From Marinobacter sp. CHS3-4 (lineage in GTDB: Bacteria > Pseudomonadota > Gammaproteobacteria > Pseudomonadales > Oleiphilaceae), in NCBI RefSeq assembly GCF_030053415.1, contig NZ_JASGBJ010000001.1:1240001-1304000 (forward strand): a stretch of 64,000 bases of DNA. Direction: 5' to 3'. Every line of letters begins with the position of its first letter. Position 1 is the first letter of the stretch. Positions 4,867 to 25,217 of the stretch are shown piece by piece. Under the pieces are notes generated by a model. The model did no database searches. It was not told the origin of the DNA and saw nothing but the letters and a program-made list of their open reading frames with translations. The position numbers were made by a program, and so were the translations under genes.

Positions 4867-4886
4867 GGCCGCATCTTAGCCTGTCA

Positions 4887-5981
4887 CTAACCCGAAAACT
4901 CAAATCCCAGCAGGGTTCTGTCGTCTTTGACCGGAGCACCATCACGAAAACGCTCAACGGATCGGAAAATCCGGTCCATGCTTTCAGCCAAGGATGAATC
5001 CTGAGTTTCCATAAACGCCTGATAGAGGCGTTCGATGGAGTACATCTCGCCCGTATCATTGAATTGCTCGAATAAACCGTCAGTGAATACCATGCCTCGT
5101 TTCCCGATTGCCCGAGTATCGAGAACCTGCTCGGGCCATGGCCCCGCATCGGACAGAACGCCGACCGGCATCCCACCCTCAAGCTTGACCGCGCCCATAT
5201 TCGTTGTCAGCAATCCCTGATGGCCGAATGTCGCAATACTGATCTTGTGAAGGTCCATGTCTATCAGACATAGAATCCCTGACACAAACATCCGGCCTTC
5301 ATCGTTCCGGTAGGCCTGGATGAAGCGGTCGTTGACCTTTTGGACAACCGATTGCGGCGAACCGCCCAAGTTTTCGGCGACAAGGGCCCTCACACACTGC
5401 ACAGCGCGGTTCGACCGCTCGTCATGCCCCATCGCGTCAGCGATTAGCCACCAGGCGCGTGTGTCAGTTTCATGGTGCGTCCAGACAGCGTCACCCCCGT
5501 TGCCGTGCAGCGGGAGACACTTACTTTGTATCGAAACGGCATGTTTCTCTACACCTGGCTCTGAAGTCGGCGTTTCTGGGCCGGGTACGTGTATCCCGGG
5601 AAGCCTCGCGGCTGGCTTTGAGGACAGCAGGCGTAATCGATGTTCGAGGTATGCAACCTCATTCGAGTCAGAAAAGCGTGGTTCAATGGTGAGTTCATAC
5701 TCTCGACGTAGTGTCGGGGAGGGGCACGACAGGCGTTCAGTGTGTCGCGCAATATCACCGCGCAACAATGCCTTATAGAGAGCTTCCCAGCGTGCTTTTT
5801 GCGATCCATCCATCGCTTCAAGAACATTGATCCGCGCACCCTCGCGCAGCAGTGTCTCACCGTTGTTGTCTGTGGCGAAGTCACGCCAGGCATCATTCGC
5901 CTCGACCAGATTGAGATTTGTATCGATTACATAGGTTGGGTCTTGCGTTGGATCATGCTCACTTACTTTGGTAGGGCTCAT
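4887..5981 (-). CDS. PAS domain-containing SpoIIE/PP2C-type serine phosphatase
   Basis: 364 residues. The N-terminus (about 15-125) looks like a PAS sensor (YVIDTNLNLVEANDAW). Residues about 155-360 form a SpoIIE-like PPM phosphatase with the metal motifs GGDAVW and IADAMGH, then VFTDGLFEQFN and a final KDDRTLLGFEF. Such enzymes usually dephosphorylate anti-sigma-factor antagonists in partner-switching systems. No STAS-domain or anti-sigma kinase gene is adjacent, so the target is unknown. I chose ATG 5981; a TTG at 6002 in the same frame would add seven residues and neither start has a strong ribosome site. Confidence 0.82.
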   Translation of the reverse strand: MSPTKVSEHDPTQDPTYVIDTNLNLVEANDAWRDFATDNNGETLLREGARINVLEAMDGSQKARWEALYKALLRGDIARHTERLSCPSPTLRREYELTIEPRFSDSNEVAYLEHRLRLLSSKPAARLPGIHVPGPETPTSEPGVEKHAVSIQSKCLPLHGNGGDAVWTHHETDTRAWWLIADAMGHDERSNRAVQCVRALVAENLGGSPQSVVQKVNDRFIQAYRNDEGRMFVSGILCLIDMDLHKISIATFGHQGLLTTNMGAVKLEGGMPVGVLSDAGPWPEQVLDTRAIGKRGMVFTDGLFEQFNDTGEMYSIERLYQAFMETQDSSLAESMDRIFRSVERFRDGAPVKDDRTLLGFEFSG

Positions 5982-6341
5982 ACGTAGGTTTACCTGGCCC
6001 AACAGAACAGTCTGCTGGGGTAACGGATCAGTCTTGCATGCCCGCTACCTTTTTACTAATTTCTCAGGCATTTACTTTCTTCGTGGATGTGTACCCCACA
6101 ACGCCTGACCTCCCATAGCCTCAAACGCAAGACAGTCTATTGGCATCGACCGCCTTACTCGAATGCTCGCTTTTCGACCACCCGGAACTGCGAGAGCTAC
6201 CTTAAGGACGGTGCCAACTCTTTGTATTTGATAGGTCTCGTGAAGATGAAACTGCGATTCTTACTGTGGGATTCAGCAGTTGCGTCCGTTCAGGCGCAAG
6301 CTTATCGTTAAGCACAGATGACTTGGACGGGAGTGTGCATC
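5982..6341. other. Intergenic region between divergent genes, no gene seen
   Basis: About 360 bases separate the phosphatase gene (minus) from the esterase gene (plus). The only sizeable open frame (6087-6311, plus) lacks a ribosome site and protein-like composition. No hairpin with a T-run and no convincing -35/-10 pair was found. It presumably carries both divergent promoters. Confidence 0.5.
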
Positions 6342-7016
6342 TTGAATGCCCAGCATGCCATCGCCGACGCGGCACAGCGATTGAGAATGCCGGTGTTACT
6401 GGCGCTGTTTCTCCTAATCACTGCCTGCAGTGATTCTTCGCCTCGCTATCAGCCTCTGGCGCAGGACTCAGTTGTGCTGGCATTCGGGAACAGCGTCACC
6501 CATGGAACTGGAGCCGGAAAGGGCGAAGACTTCCCTTCACTGCTGGCAAAGGACACCGGTTGGACGGTCGTCAATGCCGGTATACCCGGTGACACGGCGA
6601 GAGAAGCACGTGGACGCATCGGCGGACTGCTCCAGAAACACGAACCGGACCTGGTGATAGTGGAACTGGGCGGTAATGATTTTTTGCGTCGCCAGTCTGC
6701 TAATCAGGTGAAGGAGCATCTTCGGGAAATAATTACCGCCGTGCGCCGGTCCGGAGCCATACCTGCGCTTGTCGCGGTACCAGAGTTTTCCGTGTTTGGC
6801 GCCAGTGTGGGCAGCCTGTCAGACTCGCCCATCTATGCGGAGCTGGCCGAGGAAGAGCGCATTCTGCTGATCGACGGTATTTTCTCCGAAGTACTCTCTG
6901 ACGAAGGTCTGCGGGCAGACCGGATTCACCCCAATGCTAGCGGCTATCGCAAGATGGCTGACGGCATTGCCGCGGCGCTAACTGAAGCGGGCCTGAAACC
7001 TGAGATCAGCCCTTGA
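6342..7016 (+). CDS. Lipoprotein SGNH/GDSL-family esterase (arylesterase/TesA-like)
   Basis: 224 residues from a TTG at 6342, chosen because GGGAG lies 8 bases upstream; an ATG at 6318 has no ribosome site and an ATG at 6387 would leave a very short signal n-region. The signal sequence ends in a lipobox (LLITAC), so it is probably a periplasm-facing lipoprotein. The SGNH blocks are visible: nucleophile Ser in AFGNSVTHGTG, Gly in NAGIPGDT, Asn in ELGGNDF, and the Asp-His pair in ADRIHPN. Block I has GNS rather than the usual GDS. The family hydrolyses thioesters, aryl esters or lysophospholipids. The AT-rich gene that follows begins 11 bases later and looks foreign. Confidence 0.85.
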   Translation: MNAQHAIADAAQRLRMPVLLALFLLITACSDSSPRYQPLAQDSVVLAFGNSVTHGTGAGKGEDFPSLLAKDTGWTVVNAGIPGDTAREARGRIGGLLQKHEPDLVIVELGGNDFLRRQSANQVKEHLREIITAVRRSGAIPALVAVPEFSVFGASVGSLSDSPIYAELAEEERILLIDGIFSEVLSDEGLRADRIHPNASGYRKMADGIAAALTEAGLKPEISP

Positions 7017-7025
7017 AAGAGTGAG

Positions 7026-7847
7026 TTATGGAAAAACTAGCGCATGAAATATGGATATTTGATGGTGAACCTGTTCAGTTCTTTTGTTTGCCTTTTTCCA
7101 CTCGAATGACGGTTGTTAGGCTTTCTAGCGGAGAGCTATGGGTTCATAGTCCAATCAAATTATCCAAGTCAATTGCAGAGCAAATTGACAGTCTAGGTCG
7201 TGTTAAATATTTAATTGCCCCCAATCATTTACACCACTTATTCATATCTGAATGGATTGCGACCTATCCAAACGCAGAAGTCTATGGGACAAACGAGGTG
7301 ATTAAAAAGCGTAGTGATATCGCTTTTCATGCCTCTCTTGATAACCCGAAAAGCTATGCTTGGGAACCAGACATTGAACAAGAACTGTTTTCTGGTTCTC
7401 CGCTGATGGAAGAATGTGTTTTTTACCATAGGAGTTCAGGTGCGTTAATTGTTACTGACCTCGTTGAGAACTTTTCAGGTAAGGACTTTAACTACTGGCA
7501 ACGGGTTGTGGCGAAAGGTGCTGGTATACTCGCCCCTAATGGGAAAATGCCTTTGGATTGGCGTTTAAGCTTCACGTTTGGAAAAGCGGACGCGCGAAAA
7601 CACCTCAACAGGTTGTTGTCTTGGAATCCGAAAATATTGGTCATGGCGCATGGTGAAATCGTCACTGAAAATGCAGACAAGTTCTTACAACAGTCTTTCA
7701 AATGGTTAGTATGAAAAATCTTTGAGAAAATCACATAAATAAGCATTTAAGAGGGATTCTCAACACTTGGCGGTCTTGGTTCAAAGTTCAGCTTATGTGT
7801 TTATGGCACAGTGGTTTAGTTAGCGTTGTTCACTCCTGAATGTTGCG
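7026..7847 (+). mobile_element. Probable single integron gene cassette (DUF4336 gene plus attC-like site)
   Basis: The unit runs from a G/TTATGG junction just before the DUF4336 start codon to a G/CTATGC junction at the 3' end of the attC-like repeat. That is the expected arrangement of a cassette: one promoterless gene, start codon at the left boundary, recombination site at the right. Its base composition differs from the flanks: I counted 51 G+C in 120 bases at 7081-7200, against 36 in 60 at 6601-6660. No integrase gene is in the window, so this would be an isolated insertion at a secondary site or the relic of a larger array. Boundaries are inferred. Confidence 0.45.
7028..7714 (+). CDS. 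DUF4336 protein (metallo-beta-lactamase-like fold), cassette cargo
   Basis: 228 residues matching DUF4336 along its length: an N-terminal EIWIFDGEPV, FSTRMTVVRL, HSPIKLS, IAPNHLHHLF, then YHRSSGALIVTDLVENF and a late MAHGEIV. The fold resembles metallo-beta-lactamases, but the usual HxHxDH motif is reduced to NHLHHLF, so metal binding is uncertain and no substrate is known for the family. Codons are AT-rich, unlike the genes on either side. The ATG is placed immediately after a GTT triplet with only a weak ribosome site, as is common for integron cassette genes. An attC-like repeat starts 21 bases after the stop. Confidence 0.85.
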   Translation: MEKLAHEIWIFDGEPVQFFCLPFSTRMTVVRLSSGELWVHSPIKLSKSIAEQIDSLGRVKYLIAPNHLHHLFISEWIATYPNAEVYGTNEVIKKRSDIAFHASLDNPKSYAWEPDIEQELFSGSPLMEECVFYHRSSGALIVTDLVENFSGKDFNYWQRVVAKGAGILAPNGKMPLDWRLSFTFGKADARKHLNRLLSWNPKILVMAHGEIVTENADKFLQQSFKWLV

Positions 7848-7852
7848 CTATG
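7736..7852 (+). repeat. attC-like recombination site of the Vibrio superintegron (VCR/VPR) type
   Basis: This 117-base noncoding block resembles Vibrio attC repeats as I remember them: AAGAGGGATTC then CAAC and TGGC in the left half, and GTTG, TCAC, CCT and GCG at the right end. The fold supports it. The outer arms 7743-7755 and 7831-7843 pair with two mismatches and two G-T wobbles. The inner arms CAACAC (7761-7766) and GCGTTG (7823-7828) pair with one mismatch. The spacers between arms are unequal (5 and 2 bases), as in genuine attC sites. The end triplets appear decayed (TAAA for TAAC at the left, GCTATG for GTTATG at the right), so activity is doubtful. Confidence 0.62.
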
Positions 7853-7871
7853 CCGTCTAAGAGTCAGTTTC

Positions 7872-8444
7872 ATGCCTGAGATAAATCCAACGAAAGTCAT
7901 GACCTTCGCAACACCAAAAGATCTCGGTCAGTGGCTCAAGATTAACCACGCAACCGAGACCGAGTTGTGGGTGAAGATTTTTAAAAAAGGAACTGATATT
8001 CCCAGCGTGAATTGGGATGACGTTGTGATTGAGGCACTGTGTTGGGGTTGGATCGACGGTGTTAAGAAATCAATCGATGATCAATCCTATTTCCAGAGAA
8101 TCACCCCAAGAAAAGCTAGAAGCGCCTGGTCAAAGAGGAATAGAGAACATGCGGAGCGCTTGATAGGCGAGGGTATGATGACGGAGGCTGGTCTTGCTCA
8201 TGTTCGTGCTGCCAAAGCTGATGGCCGTTGGGAGAATGCCTATACGGCGAGTGAAATGGAAGTGCCTCCGGACTTTATAGCGGCACTGGATAGCAATCCG
8301 AAGGCGAAACAATTTTTTGAAACACTGACTAAATCCAGTCGCTATGTCGTCGCGCACGGATTGGGAAGTGCAAAAAGACCGGAAACCAGAAAAAGACGGT
8401 TTGAGAAATTCATGGAAATGCTTCTCCGAGAAGAAAAGCCTTAG
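7872..8444 (+). CDS. YdeI/OmpD-associated family protein (COG4430)
   Basis: 190 residues typical of the YdeI/OmpD-associated (bacteriocin-protection annotated) family: MTFATPKDLGQWL, TELWVKIFKKGT, WGWIDGVKKSIDD, RITPRKARSAWSKRN and the C-terminal Arg/Lys-rich tail AKRPETRKRRFEKFMEML. The molecular function of the family is not established; homologues are linked to resistance to antimicrobial peptides and acid stress. It lies just right of the attC-like site, is less G+C-rich than the core genes, and may be a second acquired gene. No attC-like repeat follows it. Confidence 0.85.
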   Translation: MPEINPTKVMTFATPKDLGQWLKINHATETELWVKIFKKGTDIPSVNWDDVVIEALCWGWIDGVKKSIDDQSYFQRITPRKARSAWSKRNREHAERLIGEGMMTEAGLAHVRAAKADGRWENAYTASEMEVPPDFIAALDSNPKAKQFFETLTKSSRYVVAHGLGSAKRPETRKRRFEKFMEMLLREEKP

Positions 8445-8447
8445 CTT

Positions 8448-8489
8448 GGTTCCGTGAGTACCTCTAAAAACGGAACCTGTGTTGTTTTT
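8448..8489 (+). terminator. Hairpin after the YdeI-like gene
   Basis: GGTTCCGT (8448-8455) is perfectly complementary to ACGGAACC (8470-8477) with a 14-base loop, and a TTTTT run follows at 8485-8489. The T-run is offset by seven bases, so termination may be weak. It starts four bases after the stop codon. Confidence 0.4.
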
Positions 8490-8589
8490 GGCGTTGGTGC
8501 TTCCGTGCAATGGTGGAGAGCCTAGCGACCTTATTTAGGGACTTCATACTAATTCCCTGAAAATACGAATAAATTAAGAGACATCTTCT

Positions 8590-9222
8590 GTGCTGACATT
8601 GAACTGGTCACTGTTATCGGCCTTTATCCCAACCTTTTTTGTGGTGTCGATTACCCCCGGCATGTGCATGACGCTGGCCTTGTCTATGGGTATTACCATC
8701 GGGGTTCGCCGGGCCTTGTGGATGATGGTGGGCGAGCTGCTTGGGGTTGCGGTTGTGGCAACCTCTGCTGCGGTGGGGGTGGCGGCATTTATGCTGCAGT
8801 ACCCCACGGCTTTTGCCGTGTTCAAATACGCAGGTGGCGCTTACCTGGCGTGGCTCGGGATTCAGATGTGGCGCTCTCGTGGGCGAATGGCCATGCCCGA
8901 GGAAGAAGATACCAGTAGCCGTCAGGCGTCTCGTTTACAGTTGGCCATTCAGGGGTTCGTAACGGCCATTGCCAACCCCAAGGGCTGGGCCTTCTTTGTG
9001 GCCTTGTTGCCACCGTTTCTGGACAGCGACATCCCCATGGCGCCCCAATTGACAGCGCTGATCCTGATTATTCTGCTGCTGGAGTTTATTTGTCTGCAGA
9101 TATACGCCCACGGTGGTAAAGGTCTGCGGCGGGCCTTGAATCGTGGTGGCGGTGTCAGGACGGTAAACCGTGTTGCAGGCAGCCTGATGCTGCTGGTCGG
9201 AGCCTGGCTGGCGTTCGGGTAG
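8590..9222 (+). CDS. LysE/RhtB-family amino-acid exporter
   Basis: 210 residues with about six hydrophobic segments and the LysE-family beginning FFVVSITPGMCMTLALSMG (the usual TPGP is TPGM here), followed by GVRRALWMM and a central AIANPKGWAFFVALLPPFL. The family exports homoserine, threonine or other amino acids, probably by proton antiport, across the inner membrane. The start is a GTG with AAGAGA upstream. It is followed on the opposite strand by the transglycosylase gene; the substrate is unknown. Confidence 0.9.
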   Translation: MLTLNWSLLSAFIPTFFVVSITPGMCMTLALSMGITIGVRRALWMMVGELLGVAVVATSAAVGVAAFMLQYPTAFAVFKYAGGAYLAWLGIQMWRSRGRMAMPEEEDTSSRQASRLQLAIQGFVTAIANPKGWAFFVALLPPFLDSDIPMAPQLTALILIILLLEFICLQIYAHGGKGLRRALNRGGGVRTVNRVAGSLMLLVGAWLAFG

Positions 9223-24431: not shown

Positions 24432-25217
24432 TTAGCCCAACGTTGCGTCCAGAAACATCATCACCACGAAGCCGCCCAGCAGGGAAAAAGTGGCCAATGT
24501 CTTGAATTCGCCACGATGGGTTTCGGGAATGATTTCGTCGCTGATAATGAAGAGCATGGCGCCGGCTGCGAAGCCAAGCGTCCAGGGCATCAGTGGTTCG
24601 GCCAGCCAAACCATGGTGCTGCCAAACACGCCGCCGATGGGCTCCAGAAGCCCTGTCAGCAGGGCAATGGTGAAGGCTTTCAGGCGGGAATGCTCAATGG
24701 CCAGCAGCGACACCGCCACGGCAAGGCCTTCCGGTATGTTCTGGAGGCCTATACCGATGGCCAGCGCGACACCGTTACCGATATCGCCGCCACCGAAGCC
24801 GACGCCTACCGCCATACCCTCGGGAAAATTGTGCAGGGCAATGGCAATGATAAACAGCCAGATTCGCCGAATGCGGGCGCTGTCGGGCCCTTCGCGACCC
24901 AATTGGAAGTGTTCGTGGGGCAATCGCTGGTGAATCAGATAGAGCAGGGTGGCGCCCATCAGCAGGCCGACAATAACGATGCTGGCGGCGATCCAGGTGG
25001 CGCCTGTCAGTTCCTCGCCGTACTCGATACCGGGCAATAACAGGGAGAAAAACGACGCGGCCAGCATTACGCCAGCGGCGGCGCTGAGCATGCCGTCCTG
25101 CAGCTGGGGGGTCAGCTTTCTGACGCCGAAAACCCCCAGTGCACCGACTCCGGTTCCAAGTCCTGCCAGAAGGCTGGCCAGTGAACCCAACCAGACGACA
25201 CCTATATCCCCCAACAT
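24432..25217 (-). CDS. ZIP-family metal transporter
   Basis: 261 residues with eight predicted helices. The metal-binding motifs of ZIP proteins are clear: ALHNFPEGMAVGVGFG in helix IV and GIGLQNIPEGLAVAVSLL in helix V, followed by EPIGGVFGS. The His-rich loop of many ZIPs is weak here (HQRLPHEHFQ). It imports Zn2+ or another divalent metal across the inner membrane. It is a stand-alone gene; no Zur-like operator was recognised upstream. Confidence 0.92.
   Translation of the reverse strand: MLGDIGVVWLGSLASLLAGLGTGVGALGVFGVRKLTPQLQDGMLSAAAGVMLAASFFSLLLPGIEYGEELTGATWIAASIVIVGLLMGATLLYLIHQRLPHEHFQLGREGPDSARIRRIWLFIIAIALHNFPEGMAVGVGFGGGDIGNGVALAIGIGLQNIPEGLAVAVSLLAIEHSRLKAFTIALLTGLLEPIGGVFGSTMVWLAEPLMPWTLGFAAGAMLFIISDEIIPETHRGEFKTLATFSLLGGFVVMMFLDATLG

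Follow-up and report, generated by a model that had tools for sequence, protein, structure and literature searches.

The window analysed here is a 64,000-nucleotide stretch (G000:C1:1240001-1304000) of the Marinobacter sp. CHS3-4 genome, which comprises 3.72 Mb in 7 contigs. It contains a GDSL-type lipase/esterase gene followed, in one direction, by a DUF4336 gene and by a gene of the OmdA/YdeI family, with a LysE-type transporter gene on the right flank (Table 1). The DUF4336 start codon lies 11 bases past the GDSL stop codon, and the OmdA start codon 157 bases past the DUF4336 stop codon. The DUF4336 segment has the layout of an integron cassette, with one promoterless ORF followed by an attC site in the same orientation. 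It is also the AT-rich insert that an earlier note on this DNA had described. The GC content of 7026-7847 is 0.411 vs 0.556 for the window, and a GC content this low is found in only 0.08% of 822-bp windows taken at 50-base steps.

Table 1. Features at the locus (window coordinates).
Feature	Position	Strand	Basis
GDSL-type lipase/esterase gene, left flank	6318-7016	+	PF13472, 93 bits
Left junction: native AAAGAGTGAG, then cassette TTATG; core G = 7025	7017-7028	+	comparison with G118 and G147
Cassette 1: DUF4336 gene and VCR-type attC, 822 bp	7026-7847	+	BLAST, homolog loci, R1
DUF4336 ORF, 228 aa, intact	7028-7714	+	PF14234, 63 bits
Decayed VCR-type attC (R'' 7733-7739, R' 7847-7853)	7733-7853	+	R1, 89.9 bits; alignments
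Cassette 2 remnant: 5' end CTATGCC..., OmdA gene, without its own attC	7848-8440	+	homology to L099 at 7846-8440
OmdA/YdeI-family ORF, 190 aa, intact	7872-8444	+	PF13376, 82.5 bits
Right breakpoint, cassette 2 meets region upstream of LysE	8437-8467	.	G037 and G047 alignments
LysE-type transporter gene, right flank, conserved in relatives	8590-9222	+	38 of 100 genus genomes, own included, at E <= 1e-70

The attC site was identified by homology. The earlier note had pointed to an attC-like block at 7736-7852 and proposed an attC covariance-model search. The analysis confirmed the block: R1, a covariance model of 24 attC sites from Vibrio that excluded the window, placed it at 7733-7853 on the + strand with 89.9 bits (E 2.3e-22), the only match in the 64-kb window at E <= 10. 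This match extends over the full model, including the R''/L'' and L'/R' boxes and the modelled fold of an attC site. The 24 sites were picked by hand, mostly by length, from at least 125 listed BLAST matches, and the R1 score is not independent of the BLAST result because the sites were found by similarity to the window. Among the BLAST matches listed for the query 7715-7871, the best is a Vibrio plasmid cassette (E 7e-24, 79.0% identity), in an alignment that spans 138 columns. The same query matches 74 plasmid records at E <= 10, 54 of them from Vibrio. Alignment with the 24 Vibrio sites revealed a VCR-type layout in which the variable part is shortened. A scan of 6500-8500 with Rfam returned five matches, all far below the gathering scores, which we took as chance.

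The site is mutated at both cores. As aligned, its core triplets read AAA for AAC and GCT for GTT, and all 24 Vibrio sites read AAC and GTT; the core mutations had been noticed earlier. The site retains 15 of the 19 pairs in the model, two of them as G-T; the core pairs account for two of the four that are lost. The two stem sections proposed earlier are present where they had been placed, 7743-7755 pairing with 7831-7843 through 9 Watson-Crick and 2 G-T pairs of 13, and 7761-7766 pairing with 7823-7828 at 5 of 6 positions. The bottom strand folds at -8.3 kcal/mol, weaker than every one of the 24 Vibrio sites (-9.9 to -18.6). Folded alone, 7729-7860 gains nothing over its dinucleotide shuffles, with z of -0.51 and -0.37 for the two strands, and the case therefore rests on homology, not on stability. 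The suspicion that the site is a fossil is thus supported: it is mutated and probably dead, and would no longer recombine. With cores of AAA and GCT, cassette 1 is a former cassette and probably not a working one.

Comparison with homologous loci identifies the DUF4336 gene as an integron cassette gene, as the earlier note had proposed. We compared 18 loci whose proteins are 68-90% identical to it, including those of Alteromonas KUL42 (90%), Vibrio hepatarius (87%), and Halomonas faecis and Marinobacterium iners (both 86%). DNA homology to the window stops at 7734-7738, in the R'' box, in 6 of these 18 loci, with other sequence beyond. It ends earlier, at 7687-7718, in 10, and later, at 7743 and 7760, in the other 2. 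A leader with a GTT core stands before the gene in 5 of the 18 loci; read by eye, it is GTTATGTGATTGGAG in L080 and a near variant of it in L081, L084, L088 and L092. Immediately 3' of the gene, L088 (Vibrio chagasii) has an R1 match of 38 bits. A Vibrio campbellii record carries the DUF4336 gene with a related attC, 74.6% identical over query positions 3-793 of 822. Within the genus the gene is rare. Any DUF4336 copy was found in 4 of the 61 same-genus genomes searched, own included, and the closest protein elsewhere in the genus is 54% identical, vs 90% in Alteromonas. The DNA of 7028-8444 has two short partial matches, and no more, in the other 123 genomes of the genus. A sequence search of the DUF4336 protein against PDB gave a best E of 0.75.

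The window differs from these relatives at the 5' end of the cassette. The leader between the two ATGs is missing, 16 nt by comparison with L080, so that GTT abuts the DUF4336 start codon. The missing leader held GGAG, the would-be ribosome-binding site of the cassette. AAAGAG at 7017-7022 may serve as the ribosome-binding site for the next ATG.

The cassette had been described as a lone one, which was not borne out: the OmdA gene that follows is, judged from its homologs, a second integron cassette gene. Of 369 genomes searched in the class, 12 have a relative of it at E <= 1e-40, the present genome among them. GTTATG and a short leader stand just before the OmdA ATG in 6 of the 12 homolog loci, as GTTATGCC in 5 and GTTATGTT in 1. 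The window reads GCTATGCC, with the core mutated. The closest locus, L099 (80% protein identity), shares homology with the window between 7846, in the attC core, and 8440. The GTTATG starts elsewhere and the L099 homology beginning at the attC core indicate that OmdA is a cassette gene, joined directly to cassette 1. Some relatives also have a CATAAC-type attC starting at or near the OmdA stop codon, as read by eye, and R1 matches lie immediately 3' of the gene in L104 (44.5 bits) and L100 (22.3 bits). After OmdA in the window, neither R1 nor R2, a model of the resident attC type described below, finds a second attC. Chromosomal sequence resumes at the OmdA stop codon, and cassette 2 has therefore lost its attC.

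This arrangement changes how the two junctions are read. GTTATGG (7025-7031) and GCTATGC (7847-7853) had been taken as the two ends of one insert, matching at six of seven positions. The actual count is 5 of 7, and the likeness does not mark the ends of a single insert because both cassette families can begin with GTTATG.

Both ORFs are intact. Pairwise dN/dS is 0.14-0.23 for DUF4336 (5 homologs) and 0.08-0.12 for OmdA (4 homologs, synonymous sites near saturation); these are pairwise values and no proof of selection after insertion. Neither protein gave anything in PADLOC or NCBIfam at the limits used. DNA of the OmdA region (7853-8600) has no plasmid match at E <= 0.001. OmdA residues 109-167 match TAL effector chains in PDB (best E 1.2e-5), possibly through a helical motif in common or by chance.

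The left side of the insertion can be read in two congeners. Homologs of the GDSL gene are present in 4 of 100 genomes of the genus at E <= 1e-40, own included. On the GDSL side, G118 and G147 match the window's DNA up to 7028 and have no cassette beyond. The uninterrupted left site is GAATGAGTTACAGACC in G118 and GAGTGACTTACAGATC in G147. Marking the break with a slash, the site is GAG/TTACAG in G118, with a GTT core, and GAC/TTACAG in G147, which has CTT and is therefore without the core G. Agreement with the GNT target core is thus found in G118 and not in G147. A third congener with the GDSL gene, G047, has different sequence downstream of it. The empty site predicted by the earlier note, with 7025 joined to 7848, was not found, as the two congeners read instead GAG/TTACAG and GAC/TTACAG. 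The right half of the target, TTACAGACC..., does not stand beside cassette 2; it is missing, and the full empty site was therefore not recovered.

The right side is of another kind. The region upstream of LysE in G037 and G047 matches the window from 8467 by BLAST and, by eye, back to about 8437. On these alignments the right end near 8440 is a non-integron breakpoint, and illegitimate recombination surely made this junction. GDSL, DUF4336 and OmdA are absent from the LysE loci of 29 relatives, within 1.5 kb on each side where the contig allows. Twelve LysE regions of 13-14 kb contain LysE in all 12, RsuA in 4, and PP2C, GDSL, DUF4336 or OmdA in none. G037 and G047 have a PQQ-repeat-like lipoprotein gene, read from the sequence, between RsuA and LysE. 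It follows from the LysE-region comparison that about 4879-8440 differs from these relatives. The 4879-8440 stretch is the product of more than one event. A PP2C/SpoIIE-like gene, named by reading, lies at about 4879-6240 and is absent from the 12 LysE regions. GDSL homology starts at 6242 in G118 and at 6253 in G147, which together with the absence of PP2C points to a second rearrangement.

The genome has integrons of its own, and they are of a different type. A search for intI and further attC sites, which the earlier note had suggested, gave intI in broken form only and attC sites of a resident type. No intI in the genome exceeds the family cut-off of 265 bits. At C5:153 kb, a broken intI scores 220 bits to TIGR02249 over positions 1-198, and a separate 82-bit intI piece contains stops. 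At C1:272 kb, a second scores 157 bits over 3-133. Both remnants adjoin arrays of small ORFs, and a third intI-like fragment lies at C1:413 kb (53 bits). The two arrays carry a shorter, GC-rich attC type unlike that of the window. R2, the model of this type, was built from 15 of 16 sites picked by hand from 21 motif places, one near-copy being dropped. With 150 of 1857 candidates scored, it detects at least 40 genomic sites at E <= 0.01, a count that includes the 15 training sites. Nothing in the window is significant with R2, the best being 15.2 bits (E 0.086) at 24716. Across the whole genome R1 has one further match at E <= 10, a weak one of 26.9 bits at C1:692070, which is a resident-type site (73 bits with R2). 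By comparison of the two models, the window attC is foreign to the genome's own attC type.

Foreign-type cassettes do reach the genus, since VCR-type attC sites are present in 7 of 124 genomes, own included, at E <= 1e-6. This fits a report that attC sites cluster by environment and not by host phylogeny (the part of Ghaly et al., PMC8352920, that concerns clustering). In addition, intI scores above the cut-off in 84 of the 124 genomes. The locus does lie in a non-Vibrio chromosome, as had been stated, and given these numbers this is less surprising than was implied.

We consider it fairly likely that 7026-8440 is a two-cassette remnant outside an integron, formed when an integrase joined cassette DNA at an attG-type site and altered by decay since then. 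An integron integrase, from a resident or a passing integron, would have used the GTT that closely follows the GDSL stop codon as a secondary (attG-type) site and inserted the cassette DNA there. In our reconstruction, both attC cores would later have mutated, about 16 nt of cassette leader would have been lost so that the DUF4336 ATG came to abut GTT, and the second attC, together with the right half of the target, would have disappeared through a deletion or rearrangement. We infer insertion by integrase because the left break falls at G/TT, the site is without insert in two congeners, and what is published on the integrase at secondary GNT sites agrees (PMC10127599).

The main rival, which we judge somewhat unlikely, is that the cassettes entered by ordinary recombination, illegitimate or homologous, of an array fragment, with no integrase acting at the locus. 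The right end speaks for it, as this is plainly no integrase junction, and so does the extent of the difference from relatives, which covers the whole stretch of about 4879-8440 beyond the cassettes, with RsuA in 4 of the 12 LysE regions and PP2C or GDSL in 0 of 12. The 5' cassette leader is absent, G147 has CTT instead of GTT at the site, and illegitimate joining of GAGTTA to TGGAAAAA gives the same left-junction letters, all of which would suit ordinary recombination. Against this, the homology break with G118 is at G/TT, shortly past the GDSL stop codon, which is the place expected of an integrase.

Two further explanations were rejected. The locus might once have held an integron complete with intI and attI, reduced since then to two cassettes. 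Integrons are common in the genus, as the 84 of 124 genomes with intI indicate, but the three intI-like fragments of this genome are far from the window (C5:153 kb, C1:272 kb and C1:413 kb vs C1:1240-1304 kb), no significant resident-type attC was found in the window, and the GDSL flank stands without cassettes in G118 and G147. With no intI match and one attC at the locus, it is not a Vibrio-type chromosomal integron either, and we regard a local remnant as very improbable. Vertical inheritance of DUF4336 and OmdA, with a chance resemblance to attC, would agree with two intact ORFs and with a block that alone folds no better than shuffles. It is contradicted by the R1 E of 2e-22, by the near-absence of 7028-8444 from the other 123 genomes of the genus, and by protein identities that are far higher in Alteromonas than in the genus; its probability is negligible.

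In the favoured reading, integrase insertion followed by decay, the two genes would now be expressed by read-through, with translation coupled to GDSL. Because they are intact and lie in one direction behind GDSL, expression by read-through and coupled translation is probable, as a prediction from gene order. A simple consensus scan of 6000-8700 gave no match to a sigma-70-like promoter (2.5 expected by chance), and a scan of the same segment gave no terminator-like site after 6407.

The stranded cassettes are a natural example of a known process, not a new system. Insertion of a Vibrio cassette gene outside the integron was inferred in Shewanella oneidensis, and insertion at a secondary site appears to leave a non-functional 59-be (attC) (passages on these points in Boucher et al. 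2006, PMC1382264). Like the window, that case as described there is a vibrio cassette gene outside an integron in another genus. It was inferred from a protein tree, whereas the window shows an attC remnant, a second cassette gene and an uninterrupted left site. Integrases also insert cassettes at genomic positions other than attI and attC, which is termed attG insertion (Loot et al. 2024, as cited in PMC12901181 and PMC12444791). Set beside the process summarised in those citing papers, the window would be a natural, decayed example in which integrase action is deduced. The aadB cassette was precisely inserted at a secondary site of RSF1010 (Recchia and Hall 1995, via PMC1382264 and PMC10127599), and the minimal motif of secondary sites is given as GNT (PMC10127599). 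From what these secondary sources say, that case differs in being a plasmid and a resistance cassette, whereas the window is chromosomal and decayed.

The locus also resembles elements defined by their attC sites. A SALIN is a single attC without integrase (definition in PMC12690207; CALIN and SALIN are also treated in a section of PMC9024848), and the window attC is likewise single, with no neighbouring integrase. It is not a CALIN, which has at least two attC sites without integrase; one was found. By those definitions, the window differs in having two cassette genes and one attC; cassette 2 is now without one of its own. In class 1 integrons, loss of an attC can leave fused cassettes locked together as an operon-like pair, for which coupled translation from the upstream ORF has been discussed (PMC4670013, in the passages on fusion). 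In the fusions described there, it is the first cassette that is without its attC, and the pair lies within an integron; in the window the second cassette has lost it, outside one. Our literature search found no paper joining DUF4336 with an integron, and none joining OmpD-associated with gene cassette and integron. At this locus, cassettes that ended up behind a chromosomal gene and outside any integron can be read in a natural setting, together with a decayed attC and a left site that is still uninterrupted in relatives. The case suggests how genes from integrons can turn into ordinary members of operons in a non-donor host.

The DUF4336 family also revealed changes of sequence at R''. This comparison used the window and 10 of the 18 relatives; L086 and L087 dropped out for want of a recognisable core, and the cores of L083 and L085 were set with a purpose-written pattern. 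The tail from the DUF4336 stop codon to the R'' core is 60-88% conserved between the window and 8 relatives. In the 60 bases past R'', identity to the window is below the shuffled mean for L080, L082, L083, L084 and L092 and about the shuffled mean for L081; only L085 and L088 are clearly related to it. The identities past the core come from free-end-gap alignment and are comparable only with the shuffled means of the same analysis. L082 and L084 have one common type past R''. The types are Vibrio-like in the window and L088, another in Alteromonas, and another common to two Halomonas. Three kinds of feature were assigned by visual inspection: leaders, the attC-like bodies of L080, L082 and L084, and the starts of attC behind OmdA homologs. 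In L080-L092 the R'' core lies about 25 nt after the DUF4336 stop codon, with unrelated attC-like sequences beyond.

One tentative and, in our view, quite unlikely reading is that whole attC sites are exchangeable modules, such that recombination at R'' gives a gene a new attC in a new host's integron. Independent cassette formation, or ordinary recombination, would also account for unrelated attC types past R''. If exchange were true, it would be a route for cassettes between integron systems and would bear on the origin of cassettes. One gene family with several unrelated attC-like types touches the question of how cassettes form.

Several further observations concern the resident arrays. 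Those at L073 (G000:C5:143000-162900) and L074 (G000:C1:263000-282900) have one common attC type beside broken intI, and they contain a near-identical cassette with a 142-aa ORF (532 bp at 98.3%). Away from the arrays, resident-type attC sites are found at C1:482845, C1:659955-665201, C1:692070-693773, C3:6210 and C3:307247. They range from weak (24.9 bits) to strong (82.9 bits) and are possibly further dispersed cassettes or small groups. Repeats of attC also lie at or near contig ends, at C1:617-4392, C2:74-178, C3:74-1131 and C5:165738-165824. With attC near the ends of four contigs, the assembly may break at arrays, and the array sizes are therefore lower bounds. Among congeners, VCR-type attC sites follow a peptide-deformylase-like ORF in L114 (G123:C17) and an SDR-like ORF in L117 (G100:C3), both ORFs named by reading.
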